Of a stretch of DNA of 64,000 nucleotides, positions 39,624-55,473 are shown in pieces. The DNA is from Tabrizicola sp. (GTDB lineage Bacteria > Pseudomonadota > Alphaproteobacteria > Rhodobacterales > Rhodobacteraceae). Positions within the stretch are counted from its first letter, which is position 1. Every line of letters starts with the position of its first letter. The position numbers and the translations under genes are program-made. The stretch covers positions 148,441 through 212,440 of the forward strand of contig NZ_JALHQD010000007.1 of assembly GCF_022842145.1 (NCBI RefSeq), read 5' to 3'. The notes under the pieces are model-generated. The model ran no database searches and was not told the origin of the DNA. It was given only the letters and a program-made list of their open reading frames with translations.

Positions 39624-40943
39624 ATGACACGTCTTGCAGTGTTTGGAATCGGCTATGTCGGGGTTGTCTCGGCTGCCTGTCTTGCCAGGGACGGCCATCA
39701 GGTCGTCGCGGTGGACGTCGATCCGGGCAGGGTGGCGGCAATCAACGAGGGGCGGTCGCCCATCGTCGAAAAGGGCCTGCCTGAACTGATTGAACATGTG
39801 GTGGCCGAGGGTCGGCTCACCGCCACGACCGATGCGCGCGCGGCGGTCCACGGGTCCGACGCCTCGTTCGTCTGCGTGGGCACGCCCAGTGCGGCGGATG
39901 ACTCGATTGGCCTAGACTATGTGAAAGCGGTCTGCGGCGAGATCGGTCGGGCGCTGGCGGACCATCCGGGTTTCCACTCGGTGATCATGCGGTCGACCAT
40001 CGTGCCGGGAACGATGGAGCGGGTCTGCATTCCCCTGCTGGAAGAAGCCTCCGGCAAAGTTGCAGGACAGGATTTCGGGGTCGGGTACTACCCGGAGTTC
40101 CTGCGCGAAAGCACCGCAATCCAGGATTACGCGGACCCCGGCCTGATCGTCTTCGGCGCGCTGGACGCAGGAACCGGCGCGCTGCTGACCGAGTTGAACC
40201 GCGACTTGCCGTGCGAAATGCACCTCGTGGACCTGCCGACGGCCGAAATGGTGAAATACACATCAAATGCCTGGCGGGCGGTGAAGGTCAGCTTCGCCAA
40301 CGAGATCGGGAACATTGCCAAGGCGGCCGGGTTGGATGGCCAGCGGGTCATGTCGATCCTGTGTTCGGATCACAAGGTTTCGATGAGCCCCTACTTCCTC
40401 CGCCCGGGATTCGCGTTTGGCGGGTCCTGCCTGCCGAAGGATGTCCGCGCGCTGCGGGCGTTCGCGGCCGATCGCAAGGTCGCCTCGCCTCTGCTGGATG
40501 CGGTTCTCGTCGCGAATGCGGCGCAGATCGCGCGGGCAGAAGAGATGATCCAGGCTTCGGGAAAGCGGCGGGTCGGAATGGTGGGCATCAGCTTCAAGCC
40601 CGGCACCGACGATCTGCGGGAAAGCCCGCTTGCCGAACTGGCAAGCCGGTTGATCGGCCGCGGCATGGAGCTGTCGGTCTATGACCCCTTCGTCCACGAG
40701 GCCTTCGCCAACGACAACACCTCGGTCGGCCGCGGGCTGGAGCAGGACATCGCTCTCGGCAGCCGTCTGGTCGGCTCGATCGACGAGCTGATCGAGGGGT
40801 CGGACATCGTTCTGGTGGGCAACCGCTATGACGAGACGATCCGTCCCTTGCAGGCCGCTCTGGGCAACCGCCCGATGATCGACCTGACCCGGATCAAGCC
40901 GGGCCAGCGGTCCGAAGGCACCTACGAGGGGATCTGCTGGTGA
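39624..40943 (+). CDS. algD: GDP-mannose 6-dehydrogenase
   Basis: The enzyme oxidises GDP-mannose twice with NAD to give GDP-mannuronate, the precursor of alginate-type polymers. The 439-residue product (Pseudomonas AlgD has 436) has the Rossmann motif FGIGYVGVVSAACL, the GVGYYPEFLRE segment and the catalytic Cys269 within GFAFGGSCLPKDVRAL, which is the AlgD version rather than the UDP-glucose one. VSMSPYFLRPG before it is also AlgD-like. It opens the operon and overlaps alg8 by four bases. The ATG at 39624 follows a purine-rich site; upstream codons are open but unlikely. Confidence 0.93.
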   Translation: MTRLAVFGIGYVGVVSAACLARDGHQVVAVDVDPGRVAAINEGRSPIVEKGLPELIEHVVAEGRLTATTDARAAVHGSDASFVCVGTPSAADDSIGLDYVKAVCGEIGRALADHPGFHSVIMRSTIVPGTMERVCIPLLEEASGKVAGQDFGVGYYPEFLRESTAIQDYADPGLIVFGALDAGTGALLTELNRDLPCEMHLVDLPTAEMVKYTSNAWRAVKVSFANEIGNIAKAAGLDGQRVMSILCSDHKVSMSPYFLRPGFAFGGSCLPKDVRALRAFAADRKVASPLLDAVLVANAAQIARAEEMIQASGKRRVGMVGISFKPGTDDLRESPLAELASRLIGRGMELSVYDPFVHEAFANDNTSVGRGLEQDIALGSRLVGSIDELIEGSDIVLVGNRYDETIRPLQAALGNRPMIDLTRIKPGQRSEGTYEGICW

Positions 40944-42415
40944 TGACCCGCCCGTCCGTCATCCTTGGTCACGTCCTGTACTTGGCGGTGCTGGCACTTC
41001 TGGTGCTCAGCATCCCGCCGGGTGCGTTGGGCCATGTCTCGGACGGGCTGATCGTCGTGGGTGTTGTCGGGGCCTGGCGGTATGGCTGGGCCCTGGTCAA
41101 CTACCTCCGGGCGTTGACCTACATCCATTTCTCCTATCCCCGGCTCAAGGCGCGGGCGCAGGCTGCCCATGCGGCAGAGCCGGTTCACGGCCACGCCTAT
41201 TTCCTGATCACCAGCTACAAGATCGACACCGACACCACGCGGCGGGTCTATCACGCGCTGTTCCGGGCGGCGGCAGCGGCCAAGGGCGGCGCGACGATCG
41301 TCGCCTCGGTCGTCGATACTTCGGACCTGCGGCTGATCCGGCGTGTCCACTCGCTGATGGACGTGCCGATGGGTGGGGTCGAACTGGTGATCGACCAGAT
41401 CCCCGGCACCGGCAAGCGCGATGCCCTGGCCCGGTCCTTGCGGCTGATCGGCCGGCAGGCGCCGTCGCCACGCGACATCCTGCTGCTGGTCGACGGCGAC
41501 AGCTGCGTGCCCGAAGATATCGTCGCGGCTTCGGCCCCGTTCTTCACCGACCCGACTGTCGGCGCCCTGACAACCGACGAAGCGGTCGAGATCAAGCCAA
41601 GCCTCTTTGGCGACTGGTTCGCCCTGCGCTTCACCCAGCGGCAGATGATGATGAGCTCGATGGGCCTGTCAGGCCGCGTCCTCACGCTGACCGGTCGCAT
41701 GTCGGTTTTCCGCGCCGACCTTGCGACCCAGCCAGAGTTCATCCGTCTGGTCCAGCACGACCACATCGACCACTGGCGGCTGGGGCGCGTCGATTTCCTG
41801 ACCGGAGACGACAAGTCGACCTGGTACTGGCTGCTGCAACGCGGCTACCGGATGCTGTACCTGCCCGACGTCACCTCGCTTTCGATGGAGACGCAGCCGC
41901 TGCCCGGCTTTGCCGACAGCGCCGTCACTCTGATGATCCGCTGGTTCGGCAACATGCTGCGCACCAACGGGCGCGCGCTGTCGCTGGGGCCGCGGCGGAT
42001 CGGGCTGTTCACCTGGTGGTCGATCCTGGACCAGAAGCTTGGCATCTGGACCACGCTGGCCGGGCCGATCTCGGTCGCCCTGACCGCCCTTTTCGTCGAG
42101 CCCCTGGTGCTACCCGCCTACATCGCCTGGGTGATGGCAACGCGCTACGTCTTCTGCTGGGTGCTTGCCACCGTGCGGGGCCGCGGCTTTCCGATCACCT
42201 ATCCGCTTCTGCTGTACTTCAGCCAGATCGTCGGCGCGGGGGTGAAAAGCTACGTGCTGTTCCGCCTCGATCGCCAGCGCTGGACCCGGCAGTCCACCGG
42301 CTTTGCAGCCCCCGCCCTTGGCGAGCGCCTGCGCGCCTTCGGCTCGACCTACGTGCATGTCCTTGCCCTCGGCTGGCTGACCTTCGGGGTCATGCTGCTG
42401 TCTGGGCTTGTTTGA
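40940..42415 (+). CDS. alg8: Alginate-type polymerase, glycosyltransferase Alg8
   Basis: The 491-residue inner-membrane GT2 enzyme polymerises mannuronate from GDP-mannuronate. It has hydrophobic helices at the start, a cytosolic GT domain with VDGDSCVPED (metal-binding acidic motif), TLTGRMSVFRA and GDDKSTWYWLLQRGYRMLYLPD, and then several C-terminal helices around WTTLAGPISVALTALF. The segments GDDKSTW, FGNMLRTNGRALSLGPRR and FRLDRQRWTRQ match Pseudomonas Alg8 closely in order and wording. Start is GTG at 40940, nine bases after GAGGG, or the adjacent ATG at 40943. It overlaps algD and precedes alg44 by 24 bases. Confidence 0.92.
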   Translation: MMTRPSVILGHVLYLAVLALLVLSIPPGALGHVSDGLIVVGVVGAWRYGWALVNYLRALTYIHFSYPRLKARAQAAHAAEPVHGHAYFLITSYKIDTDTTRRVYHALFRAAAAAKGGATIVASVVDTSDLRLIRRVHSLMDVPMGGVELVIDQIPGTGKRDALARSLRLIGRQAPSPRDILLLVDGDSCVPEDIVAASAPFFTDPTVGALTTDEAVEIKPSLFGDWFALRFTQRQMMMSSMGLSGRVLTLTGRMSVFRADLATQPEFIRLVQHDHIDHWRLGRVDFLTGDDKSTWYWLLQRGYRMLYLPDVTSLSMETQPLPGFADSAVTLMIRWFGNMLRTNGRALSLGPRRIGLFTWWSILDQKLGIWTTLAGPISVALTALFVEPLVLPAYIAWVMATRYVFCWVLATVRGRGFPITYPLLLYFSQIVGAGVKSYVLFRLDRQRWTRQSTGFAAPALGERLRAFGSTYVHVLALGWLTFGVMLLSGLV

Positions 42416-42439
42416 AACCCGCCTGGAAAGGACCTACCC

Positions 42440-43531
42440 TTGGACAAAGCGATCACCTCTTCCACGACCCGCAACAGTCCGGCTGCCGTCACCTGGGGCG
42501 GGCCGGCCGATCACCCGATGCTGGACATCCCGTTCCACGTCGAGATCGACGGGCGGCAGTACAAGGGCCGCGAGATCTCGTTGGTCCGGGCGACGATCAG
42601 CGGGCTGATCGATCCCCACATGCAGGGACTTGAACGCCTCGCCTGGGTGGTCTTCCGCTTTCAGGGCTATACCGTCGGCCTGTCGGTCGAAGTCCGGCTG
42701 GACGAGGTAGATGCGGCCAAGGGCACGGCGACGCTGGCGTTCCTGGAACCGATGGGCGAGCACCTGCCCCAGCTTCGGCACCTCTTGAATGCCTATATCG
42801 CCGGGGACGTGGTCACGCTGGGAAATGTCTTGACGGTGCGGTCCCCCGCAGGAGCCAAGCCCAAGGGCGTGGCCCCGGCGCGCCGGGTCCGGCGCTTCGG
42901 CGGGACGCTTCTGTTGCTGGCGCTGACGGCCCTGCTTCTGGGCCTGGTCGCCACCAAGGTCTACCAGCGGGTGTTCACGTATCAGCTTGTCAGCCCCGCA
43001 GTCGTGGGCTTCGAGGGTCGCGCCCTGGCTGCGACGGCCACGGGGCAGATCGACTTCCTCGACCCCGAAGCCAAGTCGGGCGACGTCGCTTTCGCGATCC
43101 GGTCGAATACCGGGCAGACCCTGTCCGTGGTGATGCCCTGCGACTGCCGGGTTGAGGTGCTGGGGGTCGAGGCAGGCTCGACCGTCTTTGCCGGCGATCC
43201 GGTGCTGCGGGTGTCGCAGCCCGATTCGCCTCTGGTCCTGACCGGCACGGTTCTGCCCGAGGAAATGCTGGCACTGGCGCAGTCCAGCGCGGTCGATCTG
43301 CGGTTCGCCGACGGCCGCGACGTGACGGCGCACCTTGCTCCCGGCGGCATCGGCACGGCTGCACCCGGTGAACCGGTTCCCGTTCGTCTGATCCCTGACC
43401 AGCCTTTGGCCGACGATCTCGTCGGTCAGCTCGCCGAAGTCACCCTGCGCCGCGCGGTTCCCGAGCTGATCCAGCCGGTCACCGCCTACGCCAGATCCCT
43501 CGTTTCCGAAGAAAAGGCAGACGCGCCATGA
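42440..43531 (+). CDS. alg44: Alg44-like polymerase co-subunit with degenerate PilZ domain
   Basis: The 363-residue protein has the Alg44 layout: about 110 N-terminal residues in a PilZ-like position, a transmembrane helix near residue 155 (TLLLLALTALLLGLVATKVY) and a periplasmic HlyD-like part with the characteristic PCDCRV sequence. In Pseudomonas the PilZ part binds c-di-GMP through RxxxR and DxSxxG and switches Alg8 on. Here the matching places read PADHPMLDIP and EISLVRATISG, so both arginines and the DxSxxG motif are missing. Start is a TTG at 42440 behind GGAAAGGA. It overlaps algA by four bases. Confidence 0.8.
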   Translation: MDKAITSSTTRNSPAAVTWGGPADHPMLDIPFHVEIDGRQYKGREISLVRATISGLIDPHMQGLERLAWVVFRFQGYTVGLSVEVRLDEVDAAKGTATLAFLEPMGEHLPQLRHLLNAYIAGDVVTLGNVLTVRSPAGAKPKGVAPARRVRRFGGTLLLLALTALLLGLVATKVYQRVFTYQLVSPAVVGFEGRALAATATGQIDFLDPEAKSGDVAFAIRSNTGQTLSVVMPCDCRVEVLGVEAGSTVFAGDPVLRVSQPDSPLVLTGTVLPEEMLALAQSSAVDLRFADGRDVTAHLAPGGIGTAAPGEPVPVRLIPDQPLADDLVGQLAEVTLRRAVPELIQPVTAYARSLVSEEKADAP

Positions 43532-44967
43532 CCCAACCCATCATTCCCGTAGTTCTTTGCGGTGGTATGGGCTCCCGACTCTGGCCGATGAGCCGGATTG
43601 AGCAGCCGAAACAGTTCCAGCCGACGCAGGGCAAGGGCAGCCTGACCTATTTTCAGGCCACTTTGCAGCGCCACCGTGGCCCTGATTTCGCTGAACCCAT
43701 CGTGGTGACGAATGCCGGCCAAGCCGCACTGGTCCACCGCCAACTGGCTGACCTCCAGCTTCAGGGCCAGGTCATCGGCGAGCCTGTCGGTCGCAATACC
43801 GGGCCTGCCGTACTTGCTGCGGCGTTGTGCGCCTACCGGCAGGACCCGGATGCGCTGATCCTGGTCCTGCCATCGGACCACATGATCAAGGGCGGGATCA
43901 ACCGGATCATCCGGTCCATGCGCCCGGCGGCCGAGGACGGACGGATCGTCAGCTTCGGCGTCATCCCGACCTATCCCGAAACCGGCTATGGTTACATCAC
44001 CGACGGCGGGGCGGTGCCGGACTATCCCGGCCTGCACCAGGTGGCGCAGTTCGTGGAAAAGCCGGGGTACGAGCACGCCCAGCGGCTGATCGAGGCGGGC
44101 GGCGTGTTCTGGGCTTCGGGCATCAGCCTGATGCGGGCGGCGACGCTGATCGACGAGTTCCGCCGTCTGGACCCGGTGACCCATTCGGCCGTCACCGCTT
44201 CGCTTGAAGGGGCCGAAATGCGGACCCTTGGCATCGTGCTGGAGGAGGCAAGCTTTCGCCAGGCCGCGAACGAGCCGACCGAGCGTCAGGTCTTCGAACG
44301 GACGCCCACAATTGCCATGGCCCCTTTGCACGGGGTCGAGTGGGATGACGTCGGCGCCTGGAACGCGGTCTACAAGATCGCGGACCACGACCAGGACGGC
44401 AACGTGCTGCATGGCGACGTGATCGCGATGAACACCCGCAACTCGCTGGTGCAAAGCGAGACGCGTCTGGTGGCGGTGATCGGTATGCAGGACACGGTGG
44501 TCATCGACACGCCGGATGCCTTGCTGGTGACGAAACGGTCGAACTCGCAGGACGTGAAACAACTGGTCGACCGGCTGAAGGCCAACCAGCGCCGCGAGGT
44601 GCGGACACACACCCTGCGCGAGATGCCCTGGGGCCGGGTCGAGACCATGCCGACGGACGTCGGCAACGACATGCGGATCATGACGGTGCAGAAGAAGGCA
44701 TCGCTGCAGGTCAATGGTACCGGTATCGGGCCCAGCCTGCTGACGGTCCTGTCGGGTGAAGGGCGTTGCATGATCGACGGGCGCGAGGTGACGGTGCGGC
44801 GCGGGCAGACCGTGGCCATCGAGCCGGATGAAGCCCTGCCTCTGTCGAACCCGACAGATGAAGAGCTGAAGCTGGTCCACCTCGTCTTCCGCGGCGGGAC
44901 CGAGGTCAGTGCCTTGCGGCGCGACCTCATGCTCCTGGCCTCGGAGCGGCTGCCGGAGGCGATCTGA
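43528..44967 (+). CDS. algA: Mannose-1-phosphate guanylyltransferase with degenerate phosphomannose isomerase domain
   Basis: The 479-residue protein is AlgA-like. The N-terminal 280 residues form the GDP-mannose pyrophosphorylase: CGGMGSRLWPMSRIEQPKQF, then LPSDHMI, FVEKPG and WDDVGAW. The C-terminal cupin-type half should convert fructose-6-phosphate to mannose-6-phosphate using the zinc site QxHxHRxEHW. At that place (residues 393-412) the sequence reads LQVNGTGIGPSLLTVLSGEG, without any histidine, and the usual C-terminal EDxYGR ending is absent. So the protein probably makes GDP-mannose only. It overlaps alg44 by four bases and the next gene as TGATG. Confidence 0.88.
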   Translation: MTQPIIPVVLCGGMGSRLWPMSRIEQPKQFQPTQGKGSLTYFQATLQRHRGPDFAEPIVVTNAGQAALVHRQLADLQLQGQVIGEPVGRNTGPAVLAAALCAYRQDPDALILVLPSDHMIKGGINRIIRSMRPAAEDGRIVSFGVIPTYPETGYGYITDGGAVPDYPGLHQVAQFVEKPGYEHAQRLIEAGGVFWASGISLMRAATLIDEFRRLDPVTHSAVTASLEGAEMRTLGIVLEEASFRQAANEPTERQVFERTPTIAMAPLHGVEWDDVGAWNAVYKIADHDQDGNVLHGDVIAMNTRNSLVQSETRLVAVIGMQDTVVIDTPDALLVTKRSNSQDVKQLVDRLKANQRREVRTHTLREMPWGRVETMPTDVGNDMRIMTVQKKASLQVNGTGIGPSLLTVLSGEGRCMIDGREVTVRRGQTVAIEPDEALPLSNPTDEELKLVHLVFRGGTEVSALRRDLMLLASERLPEAI

Positions 44968-46394
44968 TGCGCCTTGCGGCGGTCCTTCTGGCGGTCCTCG
45001 CTTTGGCCGGTCCCCTGCGGGCCGAGCCGGACGCGGTCCTGCACGGGGCCATCGCCCGCGTGCTGGACGGGGGCGCGGATGGCGAAGTGCTGGCGGTCCT
45101 GGCCGACCGGCTGGCCGGGGGCATTGTGCTTCCGGACGTGCCGCAGTCGGCAGCCCCGGCCGCCGGGCCGATGAAGGTGCTGGAAGGGGATGTCCAGGCG
45201 GCGCTGACGCAGTTGGCGATCCTTGCGGGCGGCAACGGGCACCTCTCGCTGCAACTGGCGCAGGCCAGCACGACGGATGTGATCTACATTCTGTCCGGAA
45301 CCGCGACCCTGCCCGAGCTTGAGGCTGCAGGCTACCTTCAGCGCCGCGCCAACGGTTGGCGCCTGTCGCGGCCCCTGGTCCTGTGGCCCGGCGCGGCGCT
45401 GGTGTTGACGAAGGGCCAGCTTCTGGAACTCGACACCGCTGGCGGAGCCTTCGTCCTCAGCTTCGGAGACGTGCGTGCAACTGGCGCGACCCTCAGGGGC
45501 GACGCCGGCCAGAACGCCCGGGTTCCCACCTTCCGCCCCTTCCTCCTTGTGACCGGGCAGGGCAGCTTTCGCGCGGAAAGATCCACTTTCGCCGACCTCG
45601 GCTTTGACGGGCCGGTGGCTTTCCGTGGAGTTTCGGTACTGACGGGCGGGCTGATGAAACCGGCCAGCCCGCCGGTGGTGGTCAGAAGCCGGTTCCAGAA
45701 TGTCTTCAGCCTGTCCTTCGAAGGCGCGGACGGGATGGTCGTGACCCGCAACCGCTTTTCCGGAGCAGGAGCTGCGGCAGTGTCGGTCAAGGACGGACGC
45801 CGCGTGGTGCTGGCCGGGAACCGCATCGCGGGCACCGACAGCGGGGCGGGCATCCGGCTTTCCGGTGTTCTGGAAGATGTGGTCATCGCGGGCAACGTGA
45901 TCGTCGAAGGCGGGCGCAACGGCATGCAGATCGACGGCAAGACCCAGCGCCTTGGCCTGCGCGGCAATGTCATTCTGGGCAATGCCGGGTCTGGCATCAG
46001 CCTTGGCCCGGCCACCTGCGTCGCTGTGCAGGGCAACATCATCGCCGGAAACGGCACCGCGGGCCTCCGCCTCACACGGACCGGCGCGGCGCGCATCGCC
46101 GACAACGCAATCCTGGACAACGCCTCGGCGGGGATCGAGGTCGAGGCGCAGGCTGGCCTGGGGCCGGTCCTGCTGTCGGACAACCTCCTGCGTGGCAACC
46201 GCGAGGGTCTCAGCGCCGCGAACCTGGGCGAGGTGCGACTGGCGGGCAATGACCTCTCCCGCCAGACCCCGCGCCAGTTCGCGGGCGACTTCTCGCCTTG
46301 GCTCGGGTCCTATCTTGCAGCCCACGACGCCTTTGTCATCCCGGCGGCCAACAGTGCCACGACTGCCACCCCCGATCCTTGTAAGCCGGAGTAA
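44967..46394 (+). CDS. AlgG-like periplasmic right-handed beta-helix protein
   Basis: The 475-residue protein has a signal peptide (LAAVLLAVLALAGPLRA) and, from about residue 235, parallel beta-helix repeats: VVTRNRFSGAG, VVLAGNRIAGT, VVIAGNVIVEGG, LGLRGNVILGNAG, VAVQGNIIAGNGT, IADNAILDNA and so on. In operon position and architecture it corresponds to AlgG, which converts mannuronate to guluronate residues in the polymer. The AlgG catalytic motif DPHD is not present anywhere in the helix. It may be an inactive scaffold, protect the polymer in the periplasm, or use other residues. It is coupled to algA by TGATG and followed by algI after four bases. Confidence 0.65.
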   Translation: MRLAAVLLAVLALAGPLRAEPDAVLHGAIARVLDGGADGEVLAVLADRLAGGIVLPDVPQSAAPAAGPMKVLEGDVQAALTQLAILAGGNGHLSLQLAQASTTDVIYILSGTATLPELEAAGYLQRRANGWRLSRPLVLWPGAALVLTKGQLLELDTAGGAFVLSFGDVRATGATLRGDAGQNARVPTFRPFLLVTGQGSFRAERSTFADLGFDGPVAFRGVSVLTGGLMKPASPPVVVRSRFQNVFSLSFEGADGMVVTRNRFSGAGAAAVSVKDGRRVVLAGNRIAGTDSGAGIRLSGVLEDVVIAGNVIVEGGRNGMQIDGKTQRLGLRGNVILGNAGSGISLGPATCVAVQGNIIAGNGTAGLRLTRTGAARIADNAILDNASAGIEVEAQAGLGPVLLSDNLLRGNREGLSAANLGEVRLAGNDLSRQTPRQFAGDFSPWLGSYLAAHDAFVIPAANSATTATPDPCKPE

Positions 46395-46398
46395 CCCG

Positions 46399-47826
46399 AT
46401 GGTATTTTCCTCGGAAACCTTTCTGTTCCTGTTCCTGCCCCTGTTCCTCGGGCTCTATTACATCACGCCCTTCCGCTATCGGTCGGCCCTGATCCTAGCC
46501 GGGTCGTGGACCTTCTACGGCTGGTGGCGGATCGACTTCCTGGGGCTTTTGATCCTGACGACGCTGTGGACCTACGGGTTCGGGCGGGTGATCGGGGCCA
46601 ACCTCGGCACGCGCCGGGCGACCTGGGCCTGCGCCATCGGCACCGCCGGGTGCCTCGCGGTGCTGGGGGTCTTCAAGTACCTGAACTTCTTCATCGACAG
46701 CTTTGCGGCGATGCTGGGCACCGATGCTGCAGGCCTCGGCGTCCACTGGCACCTGATCCTGCCGATTGGCGTGTCGTTTTACGTCTTCCAGTCGATCAGC
46801 TACCTGATCGACGTCTACCGCCGGGATGCCAGTCCCACCGCCAACTTCTTCGACTTCGCCGCCTTCATCTCGCTGTTCCCGCAACTTGTCGCGGGTCCGA
46901 TCCTGCGCTTCAAGGACCTGGAGGACCAGTTCCGCGACCGCACCCACACCGCTGACAAGTTCGCCGACGGCATGGCGCGCTTTACCGTGGGGCTGGGCAA
47001 GAAGGTTCTGATCGCCGACAGCCTGGCACCTCTTGCCGACCTGGCCTTCACCACGCCTGACCCCACCGCACCTTTGGCCTGGGTCGGCGCGCTGGCCTAC
47101 ATGATGCAGCTTTACTTCGACTTCTCGGGCTACAGCGACATGGCCATCGGCCTTGGCCTGATGATGGGCTTTCGGTTCATGGAGAACTTCGACACGCCCT
47201 ATATCTCGGGATCGATCACCGAGTTCTGGCGGCGCTGGCACATCAGCCTGTCGGTCTGGTTGCGAGATTACCTTTACATCCCCCTGGGCGGCAACCGGAT
47301 CAGCGAGGGCCGCACCTATGTCAACCTGATGACGGTCATGGTCCTCGGGGGCCTGTGGCACGGCGCCAACTGGACCTTCGTCCTCTGGGGCGCCTGGCAC
47401 GGCGGCTGGCTGGCGCTGGAACGCTGGACCGGTATGGCCCGTGCGCCGAAAAGCACCCTGAATGTGCTTCGGACGCTGCTTATCGTGCTGATCGGCTGGG
47501 TGGCCTTCCGGGCGACGGGCATGGGAACGGCCATGGACTTCTACGCCGGGATGTTGGGCCTGAACGGCTGGGCGCTGCCCTTCGAGATCGCCGTGCAGAT
47601 CACCCGCGAAAGCCTTGCCATGCTGATGGTGGCGATCCTGATTGCGGCGTCCGAGCCGTTTCTCAGCGACTGGCTGGGTCGGCGCTACCACGCGGTCCTG
47701 CCCTCGGGGAAGCTGGCCTGGTCCGGCACGGTCCTGCCCGCCTTTGCGACCACCGTGATCTTCGCGCTGGCCGTGATGCGGCTGGCTGAACAGAGCTTCT
47801 CTCCCTTCCTGTATTTCCAGTTCTAG
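46399..47826 (+). CDS. algI: AlgI-type membrane-bound O-acyltransferase
   Basis: The 475-residue MBOAT protein has many hydrophobic segments and the family motifs FFIDSFAAMLG, DFSGYSDMAIGLG, EFWRRWHISLSVWLRDYLYI and GGLWHGANWTFVLWG, where the histidine of LWHGAN is the catalytic residue. It moves acetyl groups across the inner membrane to the periplasmic acetyltransferases. The sequence is close to Pseudomonas AlgI through much of its length. It starts four bases after the beta-helix gene and is followed by the AlgJ-like gene after nine bases. Confidence 0.93.
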   Translation: MVFSSETFLFLFLPLFLGLYYITPFRYRSALILAGSWTFYGWWRIDFLGLLILTTLWTYGFGRVIGANLGTRRATWACAIGTAGCLAVLGVFKYLNFFIDSFAAMLGTDAAGLGVHWHLILPIGVSFYVFQSISYLIDVYRRDASPTANFFDFAAFISLFPQLVAGPILRFKDLEDQFRDRTHTADKFADGMARFTVGLGKKVLIADSLAPLADLAFTTPDPTAPLAWVGALAYMMQLYFDFSGYSDMAIGLGLMMGFRFMENFDTPYISGSITEFWRRWHISLSVWLRDYLYIPLGGNRISEGRTYVNLMTVMVLGGLWHGANWTFVLWGAWHGGWLALERWTGMARAPKSTLNVLRTLLIVLIGWVAFRATGMGTAMDFYAGMLGLNGWALPFEIAVQITRESLAMLMVAILIAASEPFLSDWLGRRYHAVLPSGKLAWSGTVLPAFATTVIFALAVMRLAEQSFSPFLYFQF

Positions 47827-47835
47827 GAGTCGACA

Positions 47836-48930
47836 ATGCAACCCATTCTCAGGGCCTCGCGCTTCGTGCTTCCCGTCGCCTTCTTCGGCTACACCGCCGT
47901 GGTGAATTTTGGTTACGCGCAGTTTCCGGGCCAAAGCGACCTGCCCAAGGACGTGGACGTGCTGCGGGGCGAGCTCACGGCAACCGTGGACAGCGTCTAC
48001 CGCAAGTCGCTTCCGCACCGGGAGCCGGCCATCGGCATGATCGGCGCTCTGCGCTATCTGGCGGTGGGTGAAGGCCGGAAGGGCGTGCTCGCGGGCGAAG
48101 ATGGCTGGCTTTTCACCGCCGAGGAAGTGCGGCCCCTGACTGGCGACCTTGATCTGTCCCTTGCCCGCATCGCCCGGGTCCGCGATCAGCTTGAGGCGGC
48201 GGGCGCGCGGCTGGTCGTGGTCCCGATCCCCGGCAAGCTGGACGTCATGGTGGCCCACAGCGACCATAAGGCGGCACAGGGGATCGCCACGCTTTACGAC
48301 GCTTTCCTGGCCGGACTGCGCAGCCACGACGTCGCCGTCCTCAACGCGCGCTCTGCACTAACGGGCGGTGCCGAGGCCGAACTCTCGTTCTTCCGCACTG
48401 ACACCCACTGGACCCCCGAAGGCGCCGAGGACGTGGCGCAGGCGCTGGCCGCCTCGGGCCTGGTCGATCTGGGCGACACCGAGTTCGATATCGAACGGTC
48501 CCCGCCGCACCAGTTCACCGGGGACCTTGTCGCATTTGTGACCAACGAGGATCTCGCCCCGTCAATCGGCCTGGAGCCGGAAGCGGCGTCTTCCTTCATC
48601 GCCACCGCGCGGGCGGAAGGCGACGGCCTGGACATCTTCGCGGGAACCGAGTCGGGCGGAACGCTGCTGATCGGTACCTCGTATTCCGCCAACCCGACCT
48701 TCAGCTTCGCAGAAGCGCTGAAGCTTGCCTTGCGCCGCGACGTCCTGAACCTGGCCGAAGAGGGCAAGGGACCGGCGCGGCCGATGCTGGACTATCTCGC
48801 ATCGCCCGACTTCCACGACGCCCCGCCCGAGGTGGTGATCTGGGAATTCCCGGTGCGCTACCTGACCGACCCCGCGCTGTGGGACGCGCAAGGCCCAATG
48901 AAGAATGGCCCGGTGAAAAGCGGTGCGTAA
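47836..48930 (+). CDS. algJ: AlgJ-like SGNH acetyltransferase
   Basis: The 364-residue protein has an N-terminal hydrophobic segment (FVLPVAFFGYTAVVNFG) that works as an uncleaved anchor, then an AlgJ/AlgX-type SGNH domain. The catalytic set is Asp189 and His191 in FFRTDTHWTPEGA and the nucleophile Ser282 in LLIGTSYSAN. In Pseudomonas AlgJ takes acetyl groups from AlgI and passes them on toward the polymer. The start is the ATG at 47836; its stop overlaps the next gene by eight bases. Confidence 0.85.
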   Translation: MQPILRASRFVLPVAFFGYTAVVNFGYAQFPGQSDLPKDVDVLRGELTATVDSVYRKSLPHREPAIGMIGALRYLAVGEGRKGVLAGEDGWLFTAEEVRPLTGDLDLSLARIARVRDQLEAAGARLVVVPIPGKLDVMVAHSDHKAAQGIATLYDAFLAGLRSHDVAVLNARSALTGGAEAELSFFRTDTHWTPEGAEDVAQALAASGLVDLGDTEFDIERSPPHQFTGDLVAFVTNEDLAPSIGLEPEAASSFIATARAEGDGLDIFAGTESGGTLLIGTSYSANPTFSFAEALKLALRRDVLNLAEEGKGPARPMLDYLASPDFHDAPPEVVIWEFPVRYLTDPALWDAQGPMKNGPVKSGA

Positions 48931-49696
48931 CGTCCTTCATATCGGGCTGATCCTCGCCCTTCTGTCCTCGGTGGCCCCGGTGGCGGCCGACGTGGTGTTG
49001 CCCCCGGCCATCGCGGGCAGTCCGTCGCTCAAGGCCCTGCGCAAGTCGATGCTTGCGGGGCGGGAGCTGTCGGAAGTCCAGCTTCGCACGCTTGCCGACG
49101 CAGGGGAGGGGCTGGCCGCTGCGCGCTTTGCCAAGCGGCTTGAGGAACGGGCCGACCCCGCCTTCATCGACGACGCGGCGCATTATTATTCAATCGCTGT
49201 CTACCAGGGCCGCGACTTCGCGATGCCCCGCCTTCTGGCCACCCTCACCGACAAGAAGGCCGAGTTCTCCCCCGCCCGACTGCGCAACATCCGCGGCGTT
49301 CTTGACCGCGCTGCACGACGCGGCGATGCCAAGGCTGCCGCAGGCCTGGCCCGGATGCTGATCCAGGGTGCCCCGTTCGAGACCGACATCCCGAAGGCGC
49401 GGGAATTGCTGCTTCTGGCCGCCCAGGCCGGGGACTCCAAGGCCGCGATGCAACTGGCACTCAGCCATATCCAGGGCGAGGCGGGCCTGCCGCCCGATCC
49501 CGAATCCGCCCGTCCGGCACTGGAGCTTGCACTCGCCAGCCCCGACCCGGGCGTTCAGGCAATGGCTCTGGCGCTTGCGCGGCAGATCCCCGGTGGCGAG
49601 GCGCTGCAGCCCGCCGTCCTGCCTGCCGGCTCGCCCGATCTTGACCGCAGCAAGCGCCCCCCCGTGCGCCCGCCCCTGGAAGGAGACGCCCCATGA
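48923..49696 (+). CDS. Small exported Sel1-like repeat protein
   Basis: The 257-residue product has a signal peptide (VLHIGLILALLSSVAPVAA) and helical repeats of the Sel1/TPR type: LADAGEGLAAARFAKRLEE, RAARRGDAKAAAGLARML and LAAQAGDSKAAMQLALSHI. Sel1 repeats mediate protein contacts. In the Pseudomonas alginate operon the only such protein is the outer-membrane lipoprotein AlgK; this one lacks a lipobox and is shorter. It may tether periplasmic enzymes to the secretion scaffold. GTG start at 48923, overlapping algJ; its end overlaps algX as ATGATG. Confidence 0.75.
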   Translation: MRNVLHIGLILALLSSVAPVAADVVLPPAIAGSPSLKALRKSMLAGRELSEVQLRTLADAGEGLAAARFAKRLEERADPAFIDDAAHYYSIAVYQGRDFAMPRLLATLTDKKAEFSPARLRNIRGVLDRAARRGDAKAAAGLARMLIQGAPFETDIPKARELLLLAAQAGDSKAAMQLALSHIQGEAGLPPDPESARPALELALASPDPGVQAMALALARQIPGGEALQPAVLPAGSPDLDRSKRPPVRPPLEGDAP

Positions 49697-51060
49697 TGCG
49701 CCCCATATTCGCCCTTTGCGTGCTGATGGCTCCGGCGGCCCATGCCGGCCCCACGCAGTTCGGCTGTGCCAGCACCCAGTTCGCCGCCTCGGCCAGCATC
49801 GAGGGCAAGGACGGTGTCTTCTACCGGGTGCAATCGGACCTTCGGCTTCAGCATCCGATGGACGATATCGCGGTAGCACAACTGGCCCGGTTGGCCCGCG
49901 TTCTGGAAGAACAGGGCACGACGCTGATCTATGTGAACGTGCCGACCAAGGGTCAGGCCATGCCGCAGTTCCTGCCCCCGGAAGCCGCTGCCTACGGCTA
50001 TGACCCGGCGGTGATGCAGGCGAACTACAAGGACGTGACCGACCGTCTCAACGCAGCCGGTGTGCCCGCGCCGGACCTGATGACCGCCATGCTTGCCGCA
50101 GAACCGGACGAGAAGGTCTTCTTCCAGGCCGACTTCCACTGGACCCCGGACGGTGCGCGGCTTGCGGCAAAGGCCATCGGCGAGATGATCCGCGGCCTGC
50201 CGGCCTATGCCGACGTCACTCCGGTGGAGTTCACGTCGCAGGAAGCCGCGCCGGAAGTAGCATTCTCCGGTCTTCGGCGCGAATTGCAGACCTACTGCAA
50301 GGAAACCCTGCCGCAGGTCCAAGCGACCACCTGGGTCACCACGCGCGCCACCGATGGCGAGCTTTCCGCCGCCGACATCTTCGCCGATGCAGCGCCCGCC
50401 GAACCGGCGGAAGCCACCGCGGAAGGCGAGCCGCTCGACATCTTCGGCTCCGGCAGCGACGAGGCCAGCCTGGTGCTGGTCGGCACCTCGTTCTCGGACA
50501 GCGGCATCAACAACTTCGCCGGCTTCCTCTCCGAATATGCCGGGATCGAGGTGGTCAACTACGCCATCACCGGCGGCAACCAGTTCGGCTCGATGACCTC
50601 CTACCTCACCTCGCGTGAATTCGCCGAGGACCGGCCGACCTTTCTGGTCTGGGAGAATCCGATCTACAACAGCCTTGCGCAATTCGGCCCCGTCCCGATG
50701 GACGAACTGATCGTCGCCGCCGGCCCGACCTGCGACATCGCCACCGAGACGACGGTCGAGGACAGCGCCCTCACCGCCAGCTTCCCACCCGGGCAGTTGA
50801 AGCCGGAGACGGCCTTCCTCTTTGACCAAGGTGGCGAAGGCGCGCGGATCGCCGACGTGACCTTCGAGACCAAGGCAGGCATCCGCCGATTTGTCCGCAT
50901 CGAGCGGTCAGACCGCCTGCGCGCCACCGGCCGCTTCTTTCTGAAGCTGGAACCGTATTGGCACCCCGATCTTGTCAAGGTGGCTGTCAGCTTCGATCGA
51001 CCGCTCACCGACACTTCAGCCCTTACCCTTTGTCCCATCCAGAAAGGAGACGCGTCATGA
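49693..51060 (+). CDS. algX: AlgX-type periplasmic acetyltransferase
   Basis: The 455-residue protein (Pseudomonas AlgX 474) has a signal peptide (FALCVLMAPAAHA) and a SGNH-like domain with Asp147 and His149 in FFQADFHWTPDGA and nucleophile Ser266 in VLVGTSFSDSG. The C-terminal 130 residues, after WENPIYNSL, occupy the place of the carbohydrate-binding module of AlgX. In Pseudomonas this enzyme performs the final O-acetylation of mannuronate and is part of the secretion complex. It overlaps its neighbours at both ends, ATGATG upstream and ATGA with algF. Confidence 0.88.
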   Translation: MMRPIFALCVLMAPAAHAGPTQFGCASTQFAASASIEGKDGVFYRVQSDLRLQHPMDDIAVAQLARLARVLEEQGTTLIYVNVPTKGQAMPQFLPPEAAAYGYDPAVMQANYKDVTDRLNAAGVPAPDLMTAMLAAEPDEKVFFQADFHWTPDGARLAAKAIGEMIRGLPAYADVTPVEFTSQEAAPEVAFSGLRRELQTYCKETLPQVQATTWVTTRATDGELSAADIFADAAPAEPAEATAEGEPLDIFGSGSDEASLVLVGTSFSDSGINNFAGFLSEYAGIEVVNYAITGGNQFGSMTSYLTSREFAEDRPTFLVWENPIYNSLAQFGPVPMDELIVAAGPTCDIATETTVEDSALTASFPPGQLKPETAFLFDQGGEGARIADVTFETKAGIRRFVRIERSDRLRATGRFFLKLEPYWHPDLVKVAVSFDRPLTDTSALTLCPIQKGDAS

Positions 51061-51686
51061 AACGCATCCATCTGACTTTGCCGTTCCTGATCCTTGCCGC
51101 TTCCACCGTGACTGCGCAGGATGCCAGCCTGTATGAAGATGTCGCCAACCCCAACTCCAGCTTTGTCCGGGTCGTGGACGCCACCGCCTCGGTCGCAGTG
51201 ATCCAGGCGGCCAGCTTCGACCGGGTCGAGAAAGGCGTGACACCCTATGTGGTGATCGATGGCGACAAGGAAGTCCGCATCACCTCGGGCGAGACTTCGG
51301 CCACCGAAGCCATCCAGCCCGCCACCTTCTATTCCTTCGTGGTCGGTGCCGACGGCACCTCCGCCCTCGTGGTGGACAAGATCACCCGCAACCCGGCCCA
51401 GGCCGACGTGACCTTCTACAACTTGTCGGACATCGCCTTGGCCAACCTTTACGTGCCCCAGGCCAAGGCCGTCGCCATCGAAGGCGTGGCCCCCAGCAGC
51501 GGCGGTGCCGTCGCGTTGAAGGCCCCGCTGACCCTGGATTTCGAAATCCGGGACGGTGAGACCGTGGTCGCCTCGGTCCCGGCCGTCGCGCTCAAACGCC
51601 GCGAAGGCGTCGCCATCGTCCTGTCCGGCACGGGCGGCACCTACACCGCCACCGTCTCGCCGAACGCCCTGGCCAAACAACCTTGA
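51057..51686 (+). CDS. algF: AlgF-type periplasmic acetylation protein
   Basis: The 209-residue product (Pseudomonas AlgF 216) has a signal peptide (LTLPFLILAASTVTAQ) and two beta-sandwich halves, with SFVRVVDATASVAVIQAASF and FYNLSDIALANLYVP as AlgF-like segments. AlgF has no catalytic site and is thought to bridge AlgJ and AlgX in polymer acetylation. The ATG at 51057 overlaps the algX stop as ATGA and is preceded by AAAGGAGACGC. Confidence 0.85.
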   Translation: MKRIHLTLPFLILAASTVTAQDASLYEDVANPNSSFVRVVDATASVAVIQAASFDRVEKGVTPYVVIDGDKEVRITSGETSATEAIQPATFYSFVVGADGTSALVVDKITRNPAQADVTFYNLSDIALANLYVPQAKAVAIEGVAPSSGGAVALKAPLTLDFEIRDGETVVASVPAVALKRREGVAIVLSGTGGTYTATVSPNALAKQP

Positions 51687-51697
51687 CCGGAGGGCAC

Positions 51698-54433
51698 ATG
51701 CCCATGCAGCGCATCCTCGCCACGCTTCTGATCCTGGCCCTGCCCACCGTGGCAGGAGCGCAGACGGTGGACCTTGTCTTCGAGCCGCCAGATCTCGAGA
51801 CCGGTCAGGTCTGCGAACCCCGTCCCTCGGACGAGGCCCTCGTGGCGAAATGGGAGGGCGTCGCTTTGGACGCCCTTCCCGAAAGCGATACCGCGCTTAT
51901 CAAGCGCGACTTCCGCCGCCTGATCGAACTGGACCCGCAGCGCTGGTTCGACACCGTCGACACCGTGCAGGCGAACTTCCGCAGCATCGACCCGCAGTAC
52001 TCCCTGGCCAACATGCTGATCGACCGGATCGAGCTTCTCCTGGCCGCCGGTCGCGTGTCCGAGTTGCAGCGCGAGCGGCTGGTCGAAGAACTTGCCGCCC
52101 TTGACCTGCGCCAAACACCCCGGGCGCAGCACCTCTTGGCGGGCTACCTGATCCGCGGCGTCGGGATCGACCGGGATGTCGAGAAGGGCGAGGAACTTCT
52201 GTTGCAGGCCGGTTTCGGCGGCAATGCCGACGCGATCCTGCAACTGGTGGAACGCGAAATTCAGGGCAACCCGGTCCAAGGTTGGGATGTCCCGCCCGAA
52301 CTTGGCGTCACGATGGCTTTCGGCGCGCTGGTCGGCAAGCTTGACCCCTTGATCTGTGACCGGGTGAACCGGATCGCGCGCGAATACATGAACGGTGACA
52401 TCGTCACCCGAAACACGGCCCTGTCGGAACGCTGGTACCGCTTTTCGGCGGACCTCGGCGATGCGCTGTCCGCTTGGCGGGTGGCTGAAATCCACATGCG
52501 CGCCGAAGACCTGCCCAAGGATAACGAGGTGCTCGTCACCTACCTGACCGCCGCCGCCGATGCGGGCCTGCCTTACGCGCAGGTCGCGCTGGGCAGGCTT
52601 TATGCGGACGGCGCGCTGGTGCCTCGCGACCTGGAAGTGGCGGATGCCCGCTACAGCGCGGCGGGCGAGGTCTGGGCCTCGGGCGAGGCAAGCCATGTGC
52701 TTTTCCTGCAGGCCCAGGCGCGGCGCAACCCGAACTGGTCAGAAGCTTATGTCGACGCCCTGTCCAACCTGGTTCAGACACCCGACGCCCCGGCCTGGGC
52801 CCTTATCGCGATGGCCGATCAGGTGCTCTTGTCCAAGGGCCGCTGGGCCGGCGAGGCCGAGGCGCTGGAGCTTCTGGAACGCGCCATCGCGCTTGGCGAA
52901 TACGCCGCGATGGAGAAGACCGCGCCGATGAAGTACCGCACGGCCCGCACGCCGCAGGACTTCTATGCGGTGACAGACCAACTGATGCAGGCGGTGGTGT
53001 CCTCGGGCGAGGTGGACCCGATGCAGCAGCTTTCCAGCGCCTTCATCTGCCGCGCCCCGGATGCGCCGCAGATCGAAGAGGCCGACTATTGGGTGCAGGT
53101 CGCCGACAGCACCGCCTCTGAAGCGGTGGATTTCACCCCGGAAGAACTGGCCCAGCTGGCCACCTCGCCGGACCCCATCGCCGAGGCTGAGATCCAGACC
53201 CAGGCCCTGACCGGACGGGTCACCGCCATTGCGCAGTACATGTATCTCCTTGAACAGCGGCAGGCCCCGGTCGAGATGCTGGAATTCTGGGAAAACTACG
53301 CCGCGCGTTTTCCCGGCGTGACCACTGCCCGCGCCTCGCTTGCGATGAAGGCCGCCCGCAGCCCCGCTGCCCGCAAGGCCGCGCTGGACCTGTTCCGCAA
53401 CGCCGTGGACCTGGGCGAGCCCTCTGCCGGCACCCAGTTCGCCGAAGCACTGCTCGAAGACGGTTTCGTGACGCCCGAAACTCAGGCCGAGGCGCTGGAA
53501 ATCCTGCTGCCGCTGGCTGAGCGTGGGGTTGGCGACGCCTTGGAGATGCTTCCCCTGGCGGACCCCGAGACTTTCCCGACAATGGCCGCCGTGATGGACC
53601 TCTACGGTGAAACCGTTGATGAGCGTGGCGATTTCGATGCGCTTCTCCTGGCCCTGCCCCTGATCAAGGATCGCACCGATTATGCCGACTACCTGACCCG
53701 GGCCACCTCGATCACTGCCTGCACCTTCAACGAGGCCCTGCGCCTGACCGAAGCCGTTGGCCGCGCCGGTGACCGGACGCTCTTCGAACGCTGGCTGCGG
53801 ATCTCGGACTATCTGTCGGCGGGCGAGGGCTATGCGCTGGCCGAACTGGCAGACGTCTACGGCCGCTACGGCACCGACGCCGACCAGCCGAAGATCCTCG
53901 CCTACTATCAGGCCGCCCGACAGGAAGGCAGCCGTATCGCGATCCACCGGCTTTTGAACATCTACTCGCGTCGATCATCGCCGCAATACGACCCCGCGCA
54001 ATCGGCGGCGCTGTTCGAGGACCTCGTCCGCTTCAGCGCGCCCGAGGATCTTCCGGGCACCCTCGCCCGGCTGCGCGCCGCGACGCCGGAAATCCGGGCC
54101 ATTGCCAGCCGGACCATCGACGAGACCGCGCTTTACCTCTCGGCCGCCGAATCCGGCAGCGCGGTCGCCATGCGCGAATACGCCGTGATCCTGCGCGAGG
54201 CCGCCACGACCCCAGCCGGCGTGCTGGAGTCGACCGACTGGCTGCGCCGTGCTGCCGAAGCCGGCGAGCCTGCCGCAATGGTCGACTACGCCGACGCTCT
54301 GGTCTTCGGCATCGGCGTCGATCCCTCGCGCGATGAGGCCTTGGTCTGGCTGCAAAAAGCTGCCGACCTGGGCAGCGAAGACGCCACGCAACGCCTGCGA
54401 TCCCTGCAACTCTCGACGGAGGTCAACCAATGA
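51698..54433 (+). CDS. Large exported Sel1/TPR-repeat protein, AlgK-like scaffold
   Basis: The 911-residue product has a signal peptide (ILATLLILALPTVAGAQ) without a lipobox cysteine and then Sel1-type helical repeats nearly throughout: GEELLLQAGFGGNADAILQL, LTAAADAGLPYAQVALGRLYA, DGALVPRDLEVADARYSAAG, and at the end WLRRAAEAGEPAAMVDYADA with WLQKAADLGSEDATQRL. AlgK of Pseudomonas is about half this size and assists the porin AlgE. This protein may fill the AlgK role, but no beta-barrel part or AlgE-like gene is present. Start at ATG 51698 after GGAGGGCAC; an upstream TTG at 51683 is open. ATGA overlap with the last gene. Confidence 0.75.
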   Translation: MPMQRILATLLILALPTVAGAQTVDLVFEPPDLETGQVCEPRPSDEALVAKWEGVALDALPESDTALIKRDFRRLIELDPQRWFDTVDTVQANFRSIDPQYSLANMLIDRIELLLAAGRVSELQRERLVEELAALDLRQTPRAQHLLAGYLIRGVGIDRDVEKGEELLLQAGFGGNADAILQLVEREIQGNPVQGWDVPPELGVTMAFGALVGKLDPLICDRVNRIAREYMNGDIVTRNTALSERWYRFSADLGDALSAWRVAEIHMRAEDLPKDNEVLVTYLTAAADAGLPYAQVALGRLYADGALVPRDLEVADARYSAAGEVWASGEASHVLFLQAQARRNPNWSEAYVDALSNLVQTPDAPAWALIAMADQVLLSKGRWAGEAEALELLERAIALGEYAAMEKTAPMKYRTARTPQDFYAVTDQLMQAVVSSGEVDPMQQLSSAFICRAPDAPQIEEADYWVQVADSTASEAVDFTPEELAQLATSPDPIAEAEIQTQALTGRVTAIAQYMYLLEQRQAPVEMLEFWENYAARFPGVTTARASLAMKAARSPAARKAALDLFRNAVDLGEPSAGTQFAEALLEDGFVTPETQAEALEILLPLAERGVGDALEMLPLADPETFPTMAAVMDLYGETVDERGDFDALLLALPLIKDRTDYADYLTRATSITACTFNEALRLTEAVGRAGDRTLFERWLRISDYLSAGEGYALAELADVYGRYGTDADQPKILAYYQAARQEGSRIAIHRLLNIYSRRSSPQYDPAQSAALFEDLVRFSAPEDLPGTLARLRAATPEIRAIASRTIDETALYLSAAESGSAVAMREYAVILREAATTPAGVLESTDWLRRAAEAGEPAAMVDYADALVFGIGVDPSRDEALVWLQKAADLGSEDATQRLRSLQLSTEVNQ

Positions 54434-55473
54434 CCACGCGATCCTTTGCCTTGCTTCTCCTCCTCGCCAGCCCCGTTGCTGCCGAAGAGGCCGCGAAATG
54501 CCCGATCGACACCAAGCCTGTCGTCACCCTGGGCTTCGGCAGCCGCTACACCGACGACAGCGAAAACCGCAGCGACTTCGACGAGGAAAGCGACAAGGCC
54601 GTGACTGAGGCTCTGAAGCCGATCGATGATTTCATCACCGATCTCGCCAAGCAGACCAACATCCTGAACGACACCGAGACAAAGCCCGAGGAGGCGCAGA
54701 AAGCCGCTGCCTGCGTGATGGAGAGCATCCTCGCCTGGGCCAAGGCCGATGCCCTCAGCGAGCTGACCACGCAGGGCGCGAACCTCTCCGCCCCCTCGCG
54801 GGTGGGCGGTGTCGCCTTCGCCTATGGCGCCGCGCTCAAGGTTGTCCCCCAGCCCGCGGGGAAAGCCGAAATCGAGGCTTGGCTGCGGGATCGGTCCAAA
54901 CAGACGATGGCCTTCTTCGACACCAAAGCCCCGCCCCGTGCCTCGCAGAACAACCTGCGCGCCTGGGCCGGTCTTGCCGTGACGCGCGTGGGCCTGGTGC
55001 TGGACGACCCGGCGCTGATCGACTGGGGCGCCGAGACGCTGCGCCTGGTCGCCTGCACAGCCGAGGCGGACGGCAGCCTGCCGAACGAGATGTGGCGCGG
55101 CAAGCTGGCGCTCCACTACCAGCTGCACGCCGTGGCACCCCTGGTCACCACCGCCGCCCTTCTGCAGGACGAACGGCCCGGGCTTTTCACCGACTGCGAC
55201 GGCGCCTTGCGGCGCATCGTGGCGTTCACGCTGGACGGTCTGGACGACCCTGCGGCGGTCGAGAAGATCACCGGCAAGAAGCAGACCGTGGGCGGCACCC
55301 GCAAGGCGCGTGACTTCGAACTTGCCTGGATCGCGGCCTACCTGACGCTTGACCCCGACCCCGGCATTGCCGCACGGGTGGAAAAGGTGAAGGAACTGGG
55401 CAACTCGAAGCTTGGGGGCAACCAGCGGCTCCTGTGGCCGGTCGCAGTTGCGGACGATCCGGTGGATGGCTGA
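54430..55473 (+). CDS. AlgL-like (PL5) protein with altered catalytic motif
   Basis: The 347-residue protein has a signal peptide (SFALLLLLASPVAAEE) and reads like alginate lyase AlgL over most of its length: GSRYTDDSENRSDFDEESDKA, LAWAKADAL, and SLPNEMWRGKLALHYQLHAV. In AlgL the signature NNHSYW carries the catalytic histidine. Here the same place (residues 174-179) reads NNLRAW, so the histidine is leucine and the tyrosine is alanine. AlgL degrades polymer that stays in the periplasm. This protein may be inactive, act on another linkage or only bind polymer. It is the last gene of the operon, with the start overlapping the scaffold gene as ATGA. Confidence 0.8.
   Translation: MTTRSFALLLLLASPVAAEEAAKCPIDTKPVVTLGFGSRYTDDSENRSDFDEESDKAVTEALKPIDDFITDLAKQTNILNDTETKPEEAQKAAACVMESILAWAKADALSELTTQGANLSAPSRVGGVAFAYGAALKVVPQPAGKAEIEAWLRDRSKQTMAFFDTKAPPRASQNNLRAWAGLAVTRVGLVLDDPALIDWGAETLRLVACTAEADGSLPNEMWRGKLALHYQLHAVAPLVTTAALLQDERPGLFTDCDGALRRIVAFTLDGLDDPAAVEKITGKKQTVGGTRKARDFELAWIAAYLTLDPDPGIAARVEKVKELGNSKLGGNQRLLWPVAVADDPVDG

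Follow-up and report, generated by a model that had tools for sequence, protein, structure and literature searches.

A rearranged alginate-type operon in Tabrizicola sp. that probably makes an acetylated polymannuronate rather than alginate

The window analysed here is a stretch of 64,000 nucleotides from Tabrizicola sp. (contig NZ_JALHQD010000007.1 of assembly GCF_022842145.1, positions 148,441 to 212,440), and it carries twelve consecutive plus-strand genes (39624-55473) in the order algD, alg8, alg44, algA, algG-like, algI, algJ-like, small Sel1, algX, algF, large Sel1 (AlgK-like) and algL-like. A sequence-only reading, made without database searches, had described these genes as a complete alginate-type operon next to the dnaA region. 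All of the frames lie where it had placed them; the starts were corrected to 46399 for algI, 51057 for algF and 51683 (TTG) or 51698 (ATG) for the large Sel1 gene. Its remark that most genes overlap by a few bases is also borne out: of the 11 junctions, eight overlap by 1-8 bases when the large Sel1 gene is read from the TTG, and seven when it is read from the ATG. The operon ends 0.8 kb before dnaA, whose frame starts at 56290 and is followed by dnaN-, recF- and gyrB-like frames; no promoter or terminator was seen in a consensus scan of the gap between algL and dnaA. We propose that the alginate system gave rise to the synthase-dependent machine encoded here, whose product is probably a mannuronate homopolymer and not alginate.

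In order to identify the genes, the window proteins were compared by tblastn with seven Pseudomonas-type operons, each having an AlgG above the NCBIfam cut-off. AlgD, Alg8, Alg44, AlgX, AlgI, AlgJ, AlgL and AlgA were recovered in all seven, AlgG in five and AlgF in three. Identity to the Pseudomonas proteins was highest for AlgI (55%) and AlgD (48%), followed by Alg8 (40%), AlgJ (38%), AlgA (36%), AlgX (31%), AlgL (28%), AlgF (25%), and Alg44 and AlgG (23% each). The Pfam and NCBIfam families found in the operon are GDP-mannose/UDP-glucose dehydrogenase, glycosyltransferase family 2 (GT2), TIGR01479, beta-helix, MBOAT, ALGX (twice), AlgF, Sel1 and Alginate_lyase. By homology, ten of the genes are relatives of alginate genes and the other two are Sel1/AlgK-like, which bears out the twelve alginate-type genes of the sequence-only reading. 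Nor did the proteins prove closer to the cellulose, Pel or acetan systems, a check which that reading had proposed: no such family was matched in the family libraries (Pfam for all twelve proteins, NCBIfam for ten of the twelve). There were weak side matches of Alg8 to NodC (17.7 bits, cut-off 550) and of AlgI to DltB (below cut-off).

Table 1. Genes of the alginate-type operon and its candidate regulator, with the evidence for each
Feature	Coordinates	Strand	Evidence
LuxR-type response regulator, candidate operon regulator	38644..39339	+	GerE domain; receiver domain below cut-off
algD, GDP-mannose 6-dehydrogenase	39624..40943	+	PDB 1mfz/1muu/1mv8 440 bits; C-terminus EGICW
alg8, GT2 polymerase	40943..42415	+	40% to Pseudomonas-type Alg8; DGD, HWRLGR..FLTGDDKS, RWFGN motifs
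alg44, co-polymerase: PilZ-fold domain, transmembrane helix, HlyD-like part	42440..43531	+	AlphaFold, Foldseek; RxxxR replaced
algA, mannose-1-phosphate guanylyltransferase/mannose-6-phosphate isomerase	43528..44967	+	TIGR01479 374.2 bits, cut-off 372.95
algG-like right-handed beta-helix, without DPHD	44967..46394	+	weak NF038177; PDB AlgG/AlgE4 matches; motif columns
algI, MBOAT acyltransferase	46399..47826	+	MBOAT; 55% to Pseudomonas-type AlgI; WHGANWTF kept
algJ-like SGNH protein, catalytic residues intact	47836..48930	+	ALGX 210 bits; DTHW, GTSYS
small Sel1-repeat protein (S)	48923..49696	+	Sel1 below cut-off; weak AlgK match; present in both operon types
algX, O-acetyltransferase, catalytic residues intact	49693..51060	+	ALGX 162 bits; PDB AlgX 4knc, 7ula; DFHW, GTS
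algF	51057..51686	+	PF11182 39.2 bits, cut-off 34.4; 25% identity
large Sel1-repeat, AlgK-like protein	51683..54433	+	Sel1; AlphaFold all-helical; Foldseek top three Sel1-type
algL-like polysaccharide lyase family 5 (PL5) protein, Leu for His202	54430..55473	+	PF05426 94 bits; PDB PL5 lyases; residue columns

The GDP-mannuronate supply of the alginate system (AlgA and AlgD) is present in the window. Judged by its PDB matches, AlgD is far nearer to GDP-mannose dehydrogenases (440 bits) than to UDP-glucose dehydrogenases, of which the best gave 230 bits. The AlgD residues are likewise intact, and so are the active-site motifs of Alg8. Neither Alg8 nor Alg44 gave a usable match by sequence against the PDB. 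With Alg8 just 40% identical to Pseudomonas, it might be argued that the enzyme uses another sugar nucleotide as well as or instead of GDP-mannuronate, giving a different uronan or a mixed polymer, and the lyases found beside some related operons, which are of the PF14099 and not the PF05426 family, would fit such a product. We consider this improbable, since the algD and algA of the operon carry GDP-mannose pathway signatures and the HWRLGR and FLTGDDKS motifs are common to Pseudomonas Alg8. A second kind of Alg8-like synthase, with the motif HWLWG[RK]FRFLSGDDKS, was seen beside a GDP-mannose-type dehydrogenase ending in GI[GA]W at six loci (L052, L054, L055, L057, L058 and L114), all except L114 in the family of the window; these are possibly another mannuronate polymer system.

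Of 295 genomes of the family, 41 have an Alg8 match at E<=1e-30; in 21 the copy has at least 53% identity and in 20 only 30-39%. There was no match in the other genome of the same genus in that set (G191). Among named sequences, the nearest Alg8 (92% identity) comes from a Tabrizicola metagenome assembly. From a scan of GTDB contigs we took the best 80 of 580 relatives, which is not a census; they include Tabrizicola, Gemmobacter, Salipiger, Marinovum and Phaeobacter, and also Rhizobium, Agrobacterium albertimagni, Devosia, Martelella and Roseibium. In many genera the gene order is retained and the frames are mostly full-length, which is the outcome of another check suggested by the sequence-only reading; the arrangement is therefore not due to chance. 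Two operon types could be told apart: type A, with the order of the window (D-8-44-A-G-I-J-S-X-F-K-L), and type B (D-8-44-A-G-S-X-K-L), from which algI, algJ and algF are missing together. The counts given below are for 86 ingroup loci, made up of 50 of type A, 30 of type B and six too short to type, with eight outgroup loci counted apart. L006 and L036 were dropped beforehand (their twins L125 and L130 were used), as were six repeats of L031, L039, L042, L043, L047 and L049, and L152, whose algI match was in two pieces, was for that reason reassigned by hand from type B to type A. In an Alg8 tree of 100 rows, the 85 ingroup rows stand together (Shimodaira-Hasegawa-like approximate likelihood ratio test (SH-aLRT) 100, stem 1.01), with eight alphaproteobacterial and seven Pseudomonas rows outside. 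This tree came from a quick search, in which L162, the first ingroup branch, and the outgroup were flagged as long branches that meet. On this evidence the operon belongs to an alphaproteobacterial lineage, and the host and the unusual gene order were thus correctly described from the sequence alone.

The residues on which alginate epimerisation, cleavage and regulation depend were then read across this lineage. The AlgG motifs are named DPHD and R345 here, and their columns were set on the reference sequences. The window AlgG-like protein has SVKD at the DPHD column and Gly at the R345 column, and it scores 31.5 bits against NF038177, for which the cut-off is 700. The AlgG C5-epimerase with DPHD that marks an alginate system is not found in the window. 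None of 81 ingroup proteins has DPHD (one, L130, ends short of the column), while D-x-H-D occurs in all 12 references read, five of them Pseudomonas (two of the seven operons gave no AlgG reading) and seven from the alphaproteobacterial outgroup. The column is not conserved in the ingroup, where at least 60 different tetrads occur.

The AlgL-like protein has Leu in place of His202 but keeps Arg249 and Tyr256, so that the set of His202, Arg249 and Tyr256 is incomplete. Leu occupies position 202 in 35 of 36 ingroup proteins (one gap), within a nearly invariant N-L-R-x-W motif, whereas His is found in all nine references (seven Pseudomonas, two of the eight outgroup loci). Arg249 and Tyr256 are kept in 34 of the 36 (two gaps). 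AlgL could be read in only 36 ingroup loci, as with 10 kb flanks many type A loci stop before algL. In P. aeruginosa, AlgL H202A is inactive in vitro and the strain shows wild-type growth, while R249A, R249E and Y256F strains fail (PMC8829089); an algL mutant overproducing the H202A protein gave a three-fold higher alginate yield (PMC5099689). Because Arg249 and Tyr256 are kept and His202 is replaced, a residual or non-lyase role for AlgL is a testable reading, and AlgL may keep such a role here.

These results also bear on whether the product could be ordinary alginate, which would require the AlgG-like beta-helix to epimerise with different residues, or another epimerase to act, and AlgL to work with Leu202. 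Retention of the beta-helix gene in 81 ingroup loci, the conserved Arg249 and Tyr256 and the normal growth of the H202A strain would all agree with it. However, there is no NF038177 match at E<=1e-20 in the genome of the window, the only PF05426 protein in that genome is the AlgL-like protein of the operon, and the DPHD column is not conserved, so that we regard ordinary alginate as an unlikely product.

Regulation by cyclic di-GMP (c-di-GMP) appears to be affected as well. In the AlphaFold model of Alg44 (predicted local distance difference test (pLDDT) 85), a small barrel and a long helix occur together with an HlyD-like part, which is the architecture described for Alg44 in PMC8461298. Its best Foldseek match is the PilZ domain of P. 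aeruginosa Alg44 (4rt1, TMt 0.82, 18% identity), and membrane-fusion proteins match too. The PilZ fold is thus kept, but the RxxxR motif for c-di-GMP is gone: both Arg are found in none of 85 readable ingroup proteins (one gap) versus 15 of 15 references. The ingroup instead has EHP (65), DHP (14), EYP (3), DHA (2) or EHA (1) at this column. A D-x-S-x-x-G motif was seen by inspection in 8/8 outgroup Alg44 proteins. In Alg8, the column taken as T457, which was set assuming an offset of one, is Thr in 16 of 86 ingroup proteins and in 15 of 15 references. The Alg44 and AlgG columns rest on weak alignments (23% identity each), with support from the fold for Alg44 only. Given these losses in Alg44 and Alg8, the lineage is not expected to employ c-di-GMP in the established manner.

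As the sequence-only reading had suggested, then, defining residues are lost in some parts and kept in the polymerase and acetylation parts, and the losses are common to the lineage and not peculiar to the genome of the window. The disappearance of several catalytic motifs might suggest a decaying alginate operon whose polymer is no longer made. We think this very unlikely, as gene order and frames have persisted over so many genera, the replacement motifs (N-L-R-x-W in AlgL and [D/E]HP in Alg44) are nearly invariant and the polymerase motifs are kept.

The acetylation residues are intact in the AlgI, AlgJ and AlgX of the window, and the full AlgI/J/F/X set is present. D174, H176 and S269 of AlgX are required for O-acetylation (PMC4148444). 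All three are kept in 47 of 47 readable type A proteins (of the 50 loci, one AlgX is truncated and two have no AlgX in the stretch). In type B the His is lost in 30/30 and the Ser in 28/30 (L172 and L185 keep it), while the Asp is kept in 29/30. In 22 of the 27 type B proteins from outside Martelella, Arg together with Glu or Asp stands in place of the His/Ser pair, and these residues could form a salt bridge. Of 73 AlgX columns with one residue in at least 90% of type A proteins, 32 remain so in type B; two of the four columns that differ most between the types are those of the catalytic His and Ser. Type B falls into two groups in the Alg8 tree, a 28-row Rhodobacterales clade (27 typed B and the untyped L158) and three Martelella, whose AlgX substitutions differ from those of the clade. 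A single origin was rejected by the approximately unbiased (AU) test (p-AU 5e-11; a subset of 61 of the 100 rows, with 30 type B, 24 type A and seven outgroups), and on the Alg8 tree type B arose at least twice. An association test of the loss of AlgI/J/F with the loss of AlgX residues gave p 0.5 for two independent pairs; as two independent events are too few, the case for their joint loss rests on the complete agreement and not on this value. Both operon types were seen in one genome in two instances (L047 with L040 in G183; L165 with L167 in strain CCMM004). The type A copy lacks algD and algA in both, and a Martelella type B locus, L180, likewise lacks the two genes.

No match to AlgE (PF13372) was found in the genome of the window (G000), and the operon cannot be called complete in the sense of the sequence-only reading. 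There was also no match in 18 of 19 ingroup genomes of one set (the search of which left out G021 and G159) and in eight of nine of another, the exceptions being G279, on contigs other than that of the operon, and a partial match in a Salipiger mucosus genome. PF13372 gave matches in three of three Pseudomonas used as a control. A barrel hidden in the large Sel1 protein was considered and rejected, as its AlphaFold model is all-helical (pLDDT 89) and its top three Foldseek matches are Sel1-type proteins. Pseudomonas AlgK is an outer-membrane lipoprotein working with AlgE (PMC9734138); a simple pattern found a lipobox-like motif in 2 of 75 small Sel1 and 3 of 74 AlgK-like proteins. As a lesser chance, which we would advance only tentatively, the machine may make polymannuronate independently of c-di-GMP, with AlgG, AlgL and (on at least two independent occasions) AlgX turned into non-catalytic parts, and its polymer may pass through a new porin or remain in the periplasm or envelope in place of an exit through AlgE.

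Acetylated polymannuronate is favoured as the product because of the GDP-mannose dehydrogenase, the Alg8 motifs, the intact acetylation residues and the missing epimerase motif, though these are not proof. We infer that the operon probably makes an acetylated all-mannuronate polymer under control unlike that of the textbook Pseudomonas system. AlgA and AlgD would make GDP-mannuronate, with AlgC presumably encoded elsewhere, and Alg8 with Alg44 would polymerise it across the inner membrane. With the c-di-GMP ligands of Alg44 gone, the machine is probably controlled at transcription, where the LuxR-type regulator upstream may act, or else by another ligand. The chain would be O-acetylated in the periplasm by AlgI, AlgJ, AlgF and AlgX, and the AlgG-like, AlgL-like and Sel1 proteins would hold or guide it without epimerising and, probably, without cutting it. 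In type B, acetylation would have been given up and AlgX kept as a non-catalytic part.

Several observations weigh against this proposal. The R345 column of AlgG is Arg in six ingroup rows (L048, L050, L149, L168, L169 and L185), and the loss at this position is thus not complete across the ingroup. The loss of a motif is in any case not proof of a loss of activity, as P. aeruginosa AlgL H202A illustrates. Alg8-like GT2 proteins elsewhere in the family score 250-309 bits to the window Alg8, against 317-343 for Pseudomonas Alg8, and the substrate is not fixed by Alg8 similarity alone. The Alg8 column taken as H323, a residue tied to c-di-GMP activation like T457, is His in Pseudomonas only and not in the alphaproteobacterial outgroups. 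PF13372 was not found in any of five alphaproteobacterial outgroup genomes, nor in G398, so that the absence of AlgE is a trait of a wider set and is not specific to the clade. Finally, nine other loci have a secreted beta-helix/RTX protein close to the operon, which leaves room for extracellular epimerisation at those nine.

The beta-helix-like protein with RTX repeats is encoded 5' of type A operons (L031, L034, L126, L127, L137, L139, L145, L152 and L187), about 2.5-4.5 kb from the operon start, and is absent from the window; the six copies read share an RDINFHGG motif. It was considered as a classical epimerase and rejected, as DPHD was found in none of 12 cluster frames and DPHE in none of the eight checked for D-x-H-x. 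The one copy scanned by Pfam gave RTX repeats only.

The lineage offers a natural test of structural versus catalytic functions in the alginate machine, as AlgG, AlgL and AlgX have each been retained after loss of catalytic residues, AlgX on two independent branches where AlgI/J/F are missing. Two questions on which it bears are why P. aeruginosa AlgL H202A, which is inactive in vitro, does no harm in vivo, and how synthesis could proceed with an Alg44 that has no c-di-GMP ligands. Pure polymannuronate, with or without acetyl groups, may moreover be the product of these bacteria, and it may cross the outer membrane by an exit other than AlgE.

The alginate system of Pseudomonas and Azotobacter (algD-8-44-K-E-G-X-L-I-J-F-A) has a different gene order but the same GDP-mannuronate supply, Alg8/Alg44 pair, AlgI/J/F/X set, AlgG- and AlgL-like proteins and Sel1 scaffold. 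It differs from the system of the window, for which no AlgE was found and which has AlgK-like proteins mostly without a lipobox, AlgG without DPHD, AlgL with Leu202 and Alg44 without RxxxR. Closer to home are the alphaproteobacterial outgroup operons (L190 Rhizobium nepotum, L192 Chthonobacter, L193, L196, L197-L199 Microvirga, L200 Devosia psychrophila). These have related Alg8 and Alg44 proteins and, in the five of eight genomes searched, likewise no PF13372 match, but they keep D-x-H-D with Arg in AlgG (7/7 read), His in AlgL (2/2 read) and RxxxR in Alg44 (8/8). In the three examined, AlgG is within a frame of 1246-1292 amino acids (L190 12756-16634, L197 14175-17915, L200 12635-16375), with the epimerase domain near the C-terminal end and a long N-terminal part that has a weak TPR match in L197.

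Atypical operons that are likewise rearranged, and that lack outer-membrane transport genes or some of the acetylation parts, were described by Bundalovic-Torma et al. 2020 (PMC7112194). Those are from deep-sea bacteria, and the passages concerned mention neither this lineage nor the residue losses; the word alphaproteobacteria is absent from the text, while alpha-proteobacterial occurs, for cellulose. WssH and WssI of acetylated cellulose are acetylation parts related to AlgI and AlgJ/X (PMC7112194), but they act on cellulose, and the window proteins match no cellulose synthase family. The exopolysaccharide of Yangia ND199 has mostly neutral sugars, the operon itself not being tested there (PMC7892980), and for Pseudotabrizicola formosa alginate appears, in the part of PMC9698765 concerned, only as a hydrolysis substrate. 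Judged by title and the start of the abstract, no published description of this lineage was among the matches listed, most subscription papers and supplements being beyond reach.

Among the neighbouring genes, the LuxR-type gene is found 5' of the operon in 40/50 type A, 4/6 untyped and 0/30 type B loci (repeats removed). Of 30 distinct type B loci, 16 have a polysaccharide lyase of PF14099 type (one copy scanned), mostly divergent, in this upstream place; no Martelella locus is among the 16, and the sequence upstream is short in some of the remaining 14. The lyase gene lies about 1.2-1.35 kb 5' of the operon start (L039-L046, L048, L050, L150, L163, L164, L168, L169 and L185) and, when whole genomes were searched, stood next to the operon in 10 of 11 of type B. 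Of eight type A-only genomes, two had weaker matches at other places; G171, one of the two, has in addition a sub-threshold PF14099 match about 3 kb from its alg8. The position of this lyase fits a replacement of AlgL function and a product that is a uronan. Another alphaproteobacterium (L104) has an alginate-type cluster that is rearranged and bidirectional (F, I, 8, D, J, X, L) and whose AlgL carries an NNH motif.

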